From assembly GCA_938010045.1 (NCBI GenBank), contig CALLFZ010000021.1, forward strand, positions 1 through 64,000: DNA of 64,000 nt. The letters run 5' to 3'. The notes beneath the pieces were generated by a model. That model was not told where the DNA came from. It saw nothing but the letters and a program-made list of their open reading frames with translations, and ran no database searches. The translations under genes were made by a program, and so were the position numbers. The stretch is from an uncultured bacterium (lineage in GTDB: Bacteria; Verrucomicrobiota; Kiritimatiellia; PWTM01). Below, in pieces: positions 36,800 through 53,692 of the stretch. Positions within the stretch are counted from its first letter, which is position 1, and each line of letters starts with the position of its first letter.

Positions 36800-37031
36800 C
36801 GTTTGTCGAATACGGAGCCGGTCGGCAATGCAACCGCAGAAGGCAGAGCGCTCGGCGCTCGGCTGACGCGGGAGCGGTGCGCCAGAGGGACCGGCCTATG
36901 TCGGATTATGGCGGCGGGGGCGTGGGCGGTGGGCACGATGTCACGGCTGACCAGTCCGCGTGAAGTTGATTGCGCTGCAGACTGTTTTGAGGGGTGAGAG
37001 GAGGCGTTAGGATGCGGCTCAGAGTGCGCTG

Positions 37032-37458
37032 GTGCCTCTCCCCACCCCAATCGAAGACCGCGACAGGCACGAAGACCCCCAAACAGGTACTAAAGAGGCC
37101 CCGCCCGACAGTCTCCACTCCACGGTTGTAGGCCACCTTGTTTCGTATGACGAAAAAAGGCGGCGCGGATGGGAGGCAGCAAGGATTGAGGGTTCGTCCT
37201 TCTGGGTTTGCTGGCCTGGCGGCTCCAAATGGGGACAGGCACGTGGCGACGCTTTCGGTTTCCTAGGCCCGCTGCGTTCGGAGAGGTGCCTGTCCCCATA
37301 CCGGTCCCCATAACGACTCCATGGGGTTGACGTGAGGCGACCGGCCTACAGTGCCCGTGCCCGATCGTGACGATGTGCCCCAAACGAGGTGCCTGTCCCC
37401 TGTGCCTCCTGTGCCTCGACGTGCCTGTCCCCAAGGGCCGTCCCAGGTGCCTATCCCT
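37032..37458. repeat. Dispersed-repeat island 1 (GTGCCTGTCCCC family)
   Basis: The 12-mer GTGCCTGTCCCC or its reverse complement occurs at 37231-37242 (as GGGGACAGGCAC), 37286-37297, 37389-37400 and 37421-37432. Degenerate copies lie at 37032-37043, 37062-37070 (part) and 37447-37458. Copies point in both directions and are often flanked by GTGGC or AGAG. The same family forms a second island at 52870-53315. The bipolar, spaced copies look like REP/RAYT-type dispersed elements, but no transposase gene is present in the window. Confidence 0.8.
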
Positions 37459-38148
37459 TGGGATCTCGCCGGGTTTACGGGCCTGTGGGCCCGAATCAGC
37501 CCGGCCTGCACTGACTGTGAACGGAGATGGGAGCTGCCCCGCTGGCTTTCCCTACCGTCGCGTTAGCCTTCGAATCACGGTCTCGGGATCTGCATCATCC
37601 CCACTCGATCGCCGTTGTGCGAGTTCCAGACTCTGCCTAACCGGCTGAGAGCTCGTGTGAGCTGCGATATTCGCGTCTGTCCCTGCCATCATTTGGACTG
37701 TGGCCCTCTCTCTCCGCCAGTAACTTGGCAGTCCGATGTGCACGCGCCTCACCCAGCCCACGCGCTCATGGAGCGCCGCCCCACCACCGACGTTCCCGCC
37801 ATCCACGCCGCAGGCCACGTTCAGCCGCGCCGCAACACGCCGAAGAGCGTGTCGAGCAGCCGGGTCTGGATGAAGCGTCGGGGGGGGTGAGGAGGTCGGC
37901 AGAGTCGTCGAGGCGATCTCCACCGAAGAGCGAGGGGGTGAAGTCGAACTTCATGCGGGCCTTATCCACCGCGTCTCCTACCCGCGTCCGGAGTTGGATA
38001 GTCGAAACATTCATGTTGTTTGGGCAGCGGCGAGAACCACCGGCGAATGGCGCGGTATCGTTGGGGTAAACGATCTTCGCCTTCCGCCCGCGGCACCTCG
38101 TTGGGCTGCCGAGTCCGCGCCGTGCAAGCGGCGCCTTCTGCGTGCGGT
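37459..38148. other. Gene-poor region with a segment shared with repeat island 2
   Basis: About 690 bases without a supportable gene. Short frames exist on both strands but are broken and match nothing I recognise. Positions 38001-38076 resemble 53370-53449 beyond the repeat, sharing GGCGAATGGCGCGG and a following TCGTTGGG. In one plus frame both copies translate to a GEWRG-V/I-VG core. This suggests both islands carry decayed remnants of the same element or gene. Confidence 0.55.
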
Positions 38149-38192: not shown

Positions 38193-38269
38193 GGTGGATG
38201 TAGCTCAGCTGGCAGAGCGCCAGGTTGTGGCCCTGGGTGTCGCGGGTTCGAATCCCGTCATCCACCCCA
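38193..38269 (+). tRNA. tRNA-His (anticodon GTG)
   Basis: A full cloverleaf can be folded. The acceptor stem is GTGGATG (38194-38200) with CATCCAC (38259-38265), and the D stem begins GCTC. The anticodon arm CCAGG-TTGTGGC-CCTGG gives anticodon GTG. The T arm is GCGGG-TTCGAAT-CCCGT. The histidine identity elements are encoded: the extra G at -1 (38193) and C73 (38266), followed by genomic CCA (38267-38269). The HIT gene starts 43 nt downstream. Confidence 0.97.
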
Positions 38270-52869: not shown

Positions 52870-53315
52870 GTGCCTGTCCCCATGACACCCCATGACACCT
52901 AGGCAGGTGCGACCGCCGCGGTTGGCTTCCCGCCCATGGGGACAGGCACGTGGGGACAGGCACGTGGCAAATGGGGACAGGCACGTGGCAACCCGATAGC
53001 CTTTGAGCTCATGCGACCGGTGATGTGCCTGTCCCCGACCTGCGCCCAGAGAGGCGAAGAGGTGCCTGTCCCCATGACGCCATGACGCCATGACGGCTCC
53101 ATGAGGATTCCGCGTCGGGTGAGGCGAAGCGACTATGGCCGGGCACCCGGCCGACACGCCGTGCCTGCCCCCATCGCCTGCCCCCATCGCCTGTCCCCAT
53201 CGCGCTCCCCATCGCCGGGGCACCAGAACCCGGGAGGTGCCTGGCCCCAACTGCAATCCCAGGTTGTGTGCCCCCGGGGAGGCATCAAAGCTGGCAGTCA
53301 AAGCTGCCTGTCCCC
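52870..53315. repeat. Dispersed-repeat island 2 (GTGCCTGTCCCC family)
   Basis: Exact copies of GTGCCTGTCCCC occur at 52870-52881, 53025-53036 and 53062-53073. Reverse copies GGGGACAGGCAC lie at 52938-52949, 52952-52963 and 52973-52984, each followed by GTGG. Degenerate copies are at 53161-53172, 53188-53198, 53237-53248 and 53304-53315. The triplet at 52938-52984 is a short tandem. The stretch after 53062 (repeat, then GACTCC/GGCTCCATG and GTGAGGCGA) also resembles the stretch after 37286 in island 1. Confidence 0.82.
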
Positions 53316-53692
53316 TGGGAGGCGCAGAACGCGTGTAGCCGTCCCGCAACGCGCTCGGGAGCTTCTCGGCCGGCAGGGTCAAGCATTTGCGTGTTTTGCG
53401 GAAGAGTGGAAAACACTGGCGAATGGCGCGGAGTCGTTGGGTGAGCGATGCTTCGATCACTTCGCCGAGGCCTCGATTGGCCTTTCATTCCCCAACAGCC
53501 CAATCGGCTCGCCGTTGACCGCATCGCCCTTCCAATGGAACTGCAGTGGAATGAAGATGCAGAGATTCTCGTGCGGTCGGATGTGGGCACTCACTCGGTC
53601 GAGGGGAGCGCGCGACGGTCGTCCGATCTCCAACACCATTCGCTTCAGCGGCTTGCCCGCTGTGCCCGTCTCCCGCAAACTGGATCCGTTCG
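53316..53692. other. Gene-poor region with a segment shared with repeat island 1
   Basis: About 375 bases between the repeats and the SGNH gene. Positions 53370-53449 resemble 38001-38076. A 73-codon minus-strand frame (53457-53678, ending HWKGDAVNGEPIGLLGNE) and an 84-codon plus frame overlap each other, and neither has a convincing start or a known family. I read this as decayed sequence carried with the repeats. Confidence 0.5.

Follow-up and report, generated by a model that had tools for sequence, protein, structure and literature searches.

A 12-bp word clustered in islands of a Kiritimatiellia genome: the probable trace of a widespread miniature mobile element

The flagged island and its surroundings

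Copies of the 12-mer GTGCCTGTCCCC occupy both strands of positions 37032 to 37458 (motif matches) of the window, by which we mean the whole 64-kb stretch of DNA that was analyzed. Four copies are exact (37231 on the minus strand; 37286, 37389, and 37421 on the plus strand) and four are degenerate (37032, plus strand, one mismatch; 37059, minus strand, and 37351 and 37447, plus strand, two mismatches each), in agreement with a first-pass annotation that had reported at least four exact and three degenerate copies in both orientations. The first two exact copies bound a 67-bp inverted-pair unit of family B (37231 to 37297), in which GGGGACAGGCAC and GTGCCTGTCCCC enclose 43 bp and for which a single-stranded DNA fold of -19.9 kcal/mol (z, -3.9) was predicted. 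Next to it, positions 37310 to 37341 on the plus strand weakly match a fragment of a repeated module, module D (ATGACGACTCCATGGCGGC...; E = 0.004), and positions 37010 to 37317, read on the minus strand, are homologous to islands elsewhere in the genome of the composite type seen at locus L084 (E = 1.3e-61). The open reading frames (ORFs) that overlap the island are all chance-like.

Beyond the island lie module T, a degraded piece common to many other islands (37774 to 38109), and a tRNA-His gene (GTG; 38194 to 38269, plus strand) that begins about 740 bp from the island. The first-pass annotation had placed the island between a promoter and a tRNA gene; the tRNA is there, and the “promoter” amounts to one 9/12 match on the minus strand.

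A second island spans positions 52870 to 53315, with exact copies at 52870 (+), 52938 (-), 52952 (-), 52973 (-), 53025 (+), and 53062 (+), one-mismatch copies at 53161, 53237, and 53304, and a two-mismatch copy at 53187. It is the sole other cluster in the window, as had been claimed, and the five matches outside both islands are all two-mismatch singles. Altogether the window holds 23 matches at up to two mismatches, compared with a mean of 8.8 in 100 shuffled versions (largest value, 19).

Copy number in the genome and its relatives

The genome to which the window belongs (G000; 3.2 Mb, 49 contigs, 98% complete) contains 460 exact copies of GTGCCTGTCCCC, 232 forward and 228 reverse, whereas the reversed word, used as a control, occurs 0 and 0 times. 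The 12-mer is therefore more frequent genome-wide than base composition would produce, and the contrary outcome, which the first-pass annotation had named as fatal to its reading, can be set aside. Among the first 100 of the 460 places listed, copies form clusters, making islands of roughly 100 to 900 bp. Island anatomy was read from 27 loci picked among those 100 places, together with the window. Copies lying no more than 300 bp from an exact one number 116 without a mismatch, 41 with one, and 30 with two in these stretches (0, 0, and 3, respectively, for the reversed word); up to 3 of the 116 are counted twice through an identical 141-bp sequence common to loci L077 and L082. These 141 bases stand at two contig ends, the end of contig C3 (L077) and the start of contig C5 (L082), inside a 12-mer island, which indicates that the assembly breaks at islands.

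Exact copies were counted in 58 genomes: one congener, G002, has 30 exact copies, while the congeners G001 and G003 have one and none, and the other 54 (5 of the same family and 49 of the same class) have 0 to 3 each. Among 387 genomes of the phylum, more than four copies were found in just G000, G002, G304 (29 copies), G388 (14 copies), and G394 (10 copies). In G001, the neighbors of the flagged locus are kept in the same order (76.5% identity over 716 and 75.2% over 456 aligned bases), and the distance between these syntenic blocks is 318 bp, versus 1,432 bp in G000. The 12-mer core is absent from this syntenic interval of G001, which fits a gain in G000 or a loss in G001 alike.

Anatomy of the islands

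The consensus extends to GTGCCTGTCCCCA, the added A being present in 81% of 112 copies, and the flanks are otherwise variable. Copies with up to one mismatch form 115 neighbor pairs at distances of up to 150 bp, two of which are double-counted through the overlap of L077 and L082: 30 are oriented (-,+), 20 (+,-), 34 (+,+), and 31 (-,-), so direct pairs number 65 of 115 and inverted pairs 50. The inverted pairs prefer inner spacings of 42 to 54 bp (11 of 30) and 23 to 26 bp (9 of 20), a partial likeness in G000 to REPINs with their inverted ends at a preferred spacing. By itself the 12-mer is not palindromic and forms no hairpin (0 kcal/mol). For five hand-picked inverted units, single-stranded folds were predicted in which the 12-mers form the stem (z, -3.0 to -6.4), the hairpin potential expected of a REPIN pair.

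Mismatch rates, which carry an ascertainment bias in both families compared, do not clearly show much stronger conservation of the 12-mers than of the sequence around them: in family A, 46 of 288 positions mismatched at the ends (16.0%) versus 109 of 599 in the interior (18.2%), and in family B, 12 of 144 (8.3%) versus 34 of 232 (14.7%). Exact ends numbered 11 of 24 in family A and 7 of 12 in family B.

Beyond the pairs, islands are mosaics of diverged shared modules (A to E and T) with roughly 60 to 80% identity and 12-mers at module edges. Local duplication is also supported, if by small numbers. Where direct neighbors stood 6 to 40 bp apart, the edge of the spacer was repeated outside the pair in 8 of 34 cases in G000 (0.8 expected), 5 of 7 in G304 (2.1 expected), 7 of 12 in G388 (2.7 expected), and 2 of 4 in G394 (0.9 expected). 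Short tandem 12-mer arrays with units of about 24 to 35 bp were seen at L133 (G304), L137 (G388), and L140 (G394), with spacers that differ between the genomes.

Module T, which recurs in the window at 53324 to 53490 and at loci L150 to L179 and has a coding look on the minus strand, is probably one end of an insertion sequence. It gave no Pfam or NCBIfam match. Searches with it found 65 matches in G000 and 54 in G005, several of the latter lying where contigs end; G008 gave 7 and G002 a single weak one, and 8 other genomes gave none. The gene ahead of it at one G005 locus (L150) we take to be an IS66-type transposase.

Broken Y1 genes in the genome and genus

A Pfam Y1_Tnp search of G000 returned nothing. 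The first-pass annotation had likewise found no transposase, which holds for the window as far as it was examined; for G000 as a whole, this negative was overturned by broken genes detected with other profiles. A profile of 12 RAYTs, built with no G000 sequence, revealed two, on contigs C4 and C1. The first, itself inside a 12-mer island (G000:C4:93313-93546; E = 1.3e-12), is an amino-terminal Y1 remnant that has lost the HUH motif. It groups with the Y1 genes of L051, L056, and L059 (100/99), an unsure placement for so short a remnant. The ends of these relatives are GGGGTCGCATC in L051 and L056 and GGGGTCAGGTC in L059, and their difference from the 12-mer weakens the candidacy of the C4 gene as the cognate enzyme. 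The second (G000:C1:3609-4030; E = 1.3e-9 and 7e-5) consists of open pieces that best match a divergent clade, A2, described below. Its candidacy is weakened by the lack of a 12-mer close by, the 3.2 kb examined holding no exact copy and one with two mismatches.

Y1 fragments or broken pieces were also found in G002 and in G005, the latter with an additional, stronger A2 match; G001 gave none by the 12-RAYT profile or A2, and G003 none by the 12-RAYT profile. The Y1 machinery seen in the genus is thus broken. Because contigs break at islands, an intact RAYT may lie in the gaps of the G000 assembly. On contig C62 of G002 (L323, L327, and L330), Y1 remnants related to the Y1 proteins of L051 and L056 lie between inverted GGGGTCACGTCTCC... 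ends; this is another GGGGWSAS element, broken.

The same pair in other bacteria

Named genomes were searched for the pattern GGGGACAGGCACN{42,72}GTGCCTGTCCCC, i.e., an inverted pair with a 42- to 72-bp spacer, pairing being thus a criterion of the search. At least 91 stretches matched, where uniform random DNA would yield about 0.03, and by record title they are spread over about 11 phyla. These are Proteobacteria (alpha, beta, and gamma), Bacillota, Actinomycetota, Acidobacteriota, Verrucomicrobiota, Planctomycetota, “Deltaproteobacteria” (with Geomonas and Desulfonatronospira), Campylobacterota, Omnitrophota, Hydrogenedentota, and Kaiserbacteria.

All 35 of these genomes that were taken for closer study contain the 12-mer, in 2 to 549 copies, and 33 have a Y1_Tnp match, the two without one being G405 (17 copies) and G413 (5 copies). 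When one best Y1 locus was examined in each of 30 genomes, the flanks held an exact 12-mer in 6 and a copy with up to one mismatch in 10; 20 further Y1 loci, 18 with a recognized ORF, added 3 with an exact copy within 700 bp. With locus L252 included, 9 of the 35 genomes have an exact 12-mer within 700 bp of a Y1 (RAYT) gene, Y1 transposases being the only neighbors searched for. Five genomes combine a single Y1 gene with more than 50 copies (G395, G398, G401, G403, and G410), and in all five that gene is flanked by the 12-mer. Four single-Y1 genomes have fewer copies: the gene is unflanked in G406, G414, and G423, and the G419 locus was left out. Two genomes rich in copies had no near copy at the Y1 loci seen, other Y1 genes being outside the sample: Desulfonatronospira G421, with the most copies of all (549; two loci), and Desulfoscipio G415 (153 copies; six loci). 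The Caulobacter sp. RYN_460 RAYT (contig JAQGIN010000125.1, L230) has a 69-bp unit on one side and a 67-bp unit on the other (one arm carrying a mismatch). The RAYT of Lachnospiraceae UBA4381 (L308) is bracketed by a 30-bp inverted repeat that includes the 12-mer and is identical at either side.

In a tree of 75 Y1 proteins, 12-mer-flanked rows fall in several places, with 4 label changes for 9 rows. The starred branches force at least 3 of the 4 changes, and 46 of 500 label shuffles gave values as low; a single origin of 12-mer-flanked RAYTs is thus unsupported by the tree.

RAYT clade A2 of the phylum

Within the phylum, the Y1 loci found with Pfam lacked the exact 12-mer in 30 of 30 cases among relatives (L039 to L068) and in 11 of 11 in G304, G388, and G394, where the sole near copy (L124) has one mismatch and lies more than 1 kb from the gene. 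Pfam Y1_Tnp detects one divergent RAYT clade poorly: its G388 and G394 genes were unlisted and its G033 gene scored 6e-6. From these three genes the alignment A2 was built; exact 12-mers lie within 500 bp of the G033 and G388 genes, and one-mismatch copies accompany that of G394. When 387 genomes were searched with A2, the best match outside these three was a gene in G304, left out of the profile, with four exact 12-mers beside it.

The 12-mer is absent from many A2-clade genomes, whose members often have related ends, e.g., GGGGACAGAGACGC or AGGGACAGGTGAAT. The motif [AG]GGGACAG, picked after the ends of A2 loci had been inspected, occurred within 500 bp in 21 of 30 A2 loci (three of them the A2 rows themselves), versus 6 of 30 when the motif was reversed; among other Y1 ORFs of the phylum, it occurred near 5 of 41. 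More broadly, GGGGTCAG or GGGGACAG stands on both sides of a good part of the Y1 genes of relatives, continuing differently from gene to gene, and some of these ends are locally duplicated.

Comparison with known elements

Read from the outside in, the 12-mer is GGGGACAG-GCAC and fits GGGGWSAS at its outer end. This consensus is shared by many of the inverted repeats flanking the RAYT-like genes termed TIRYTs in PMC3733652. According to PMC6006769, 20 of 26 TIRYTs fall in Y1 subclass 2.1, a subclass that also takes in RAYT group 1 of Bertels 2017, and automatic and manual searches there gave no REP-like sequences beside subclasses 2.1 and 2.3. REPINs are described in PMC3116915 as REP doublets that form hairpins.

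The kind to which the 12-mer would belong, that of the GGGGWSAS ends of TIRYTs and of REPIN-like pairs, is already known. The 12-mer resembles TIRYT terminal repeats (PMC3733652) in its consensus, its inverted ends beside RAYT-like genes, and its occurrence in dimers or clusters. Inverted copies flank Y1 RAYT-like genes in other genomes (L230/L294, L308, and L299); the broken Y1 genes of G000 have no such flanking copies. Unlike the described TIRYT repeats, one exact 12-mer is here common to several Y1 lineages and about 11 phyla, and it reaches 460 copies without an intact gene. Moreover, whereas TIRYTs are mostly of subclass 2.1, the 12-mer clade of this phylum, A2, has a long HUH-to-tyrosine distance in its predicted proteins that recalls subclass 2.3.

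With REPINs (PMC3116915), the units share short conserved inverted ends, a variable spacer, hairpin potential, clusters and tandem arrays, and, in other genomes, a RAYT nearby. They differ in that the end word is no REP palindrome and many copies are direct neighbors or singles; the gapped assembly of G000 shows broken Y1 genes only in place of a cognate RAYT. Like the GTAG REPs that form REPtrons with RAYTs (PMC3733652), copies cluster in both orientations, and GTAG-type palindromes occur in some of the same islands. The 12-mer, however, has neither a GTAG or CGTC tag at one end nor a 20- to 40-bp imperfect palindrome with an internal hairpin, and, being nonpalindromic and untagged, is not a classical REP. 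The first-pass annotation's comparison with REP elements mobilized by RAYTs therefore survives in part: the 12-mer flanks RAYT-type Y1 genes elsewhere and inverted pairs can fold, but the lone word has no hairpin or tag and fits GGGGWSAS instead.

A search of the main text of journal papers outside subscription titles found no description of this exact word as a high-copy, paired unit in different phyla or of its tie to several RAYT lineages. The word may be among the individual TIRs drawn in Figure 9 of PMC3733652. The exact word or its complement turned up in a paper on transgenic pigs, judging by title, and shorter strings in papers that, among those listed, were unrelated by title.

Interpretation and alternatives

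These observations make it probable, in our judgment, that the 12-mer marks the ends of REPIN-like miniature elements that a RAYT/TIRYT, since broken or lost, formerly moved in trans and that were enlarged by tandem duplication and are decaying. Two inverted copies with GGGG outermost, around roughly 40 to 55 bp of variable DNA, would form a hairpin when single-stranded. A single-strand transposase of the RAYT/TIRYT-type Y1 (HUH) kind would recognize the hairpin ends, cut there, and move or copy the unit in trans. Local tandem duplication would then enlarge the islands, and, once the responsible enzyme was lost or broken, mutation would erode the copies, giving a series like that observed (116 exact, 41 with one mismatch, and 30 with two). 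This recognition and movement by an enzyme, the breakage or loss of the lineage's cognate enzyme, and the duplication and later erosion of islands are inferred.

The modular islands invite another explanation, in which an older composite mobile element (modules A to E and T) multiplied as a whole and the 12-mer, one part of its interior, became frequent along with it. Islands do consist of diverged copies of shared modules, at roughly 60 to 80% identity, with 12-mers at the edges. We nevertheless consider this unlikely: amplification of the identical 12-mer is seen amid unrelated surroundings in G002, G304, G388, G394, and many named genomes, and G005 has 54 module T matches and just one exact 12-mer, so that the word is separable from the module.

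A short word that stays exactly the same while its surroundings vary, and that is present in distant genomes, could also be expected of a protein-binding or DNA uptake site kept by selection or biased uptake. DNA uptake sequences are dispersed, mostly as single copies and often inside genes, whereas the copies here are clustered, in islands among the first 100 of the 460 places listed; counts within one genus run from 30 (G002) to one (G001) and none (G003), and elsewhere the word repeatedly stands beside Y1 transposase genes. Such a site is very improbable. It is also very improbable that the units are MITEs derived from a DDE insertion sequence whose terminal repeats measure 12 bp, even with inverted 12-bp ends around short interiors and a degraded, insertion-sequence-like module T beside many islands. 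No consistent target duplication is evident by eye in the printed copies of families A and B, and the neighbors of the 12-mer elsewhere are Y1 transposases, the only kind searched for.

We therefore regard the 12-mer as the probable trace of a miniature mobile element that is widespread and has a broken engine in G000. A more speculative extension, which we hold to be possible but doubtful, is that the one 12-bp word GGGGACAGGCAC is a recognition site common to several distant RAYT/TIRYT lineages across bacteria, the poorly Pfam-detected clade among them, the units spreading, outliving their enzyme, and being open to remobilization by a newly acquired RAYT of another clade. If true, GGGGACAGGCAC would be a trans-phylum currency of mobile DNA, and the rule of a separate REP for each RAYT would not apply. 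For enzymes of Y1 subclasses 2.1 and 2.3, beside which PMC6006769 reports no REP-like sequences, a high-copy 12-mer of constant sequence, paired into hairpin units next to RAYT genes, would offer a concrete substrate for testing; movement could be measured in genomes that combine one RAYT with many units. G000 represents the opposite case, with hundreds of units and just broken Y1 genes seen, useful for tracking decay after loss.

Other motifs in the islands

GTAG-type palindromes (GTAGCTCCGGCGCTCCGCCGCCGGAGC) recur in 12-mer islands, as at L074:2717-2746, L075:2690-2720, L078, L084, L095, and others. Of 28 stretches, 11 contain their 12-mer core, CGCCGGAGCTAC, with 20 occurrences in all, indicating that a second REP family shares the islands. 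In several G002 copies (L097 to L108), a CATGATGAAT-like palindromic motif was seen by eye roughly 20 to 30 bp inside the 12-mer, possibly a subterminal hairpin.
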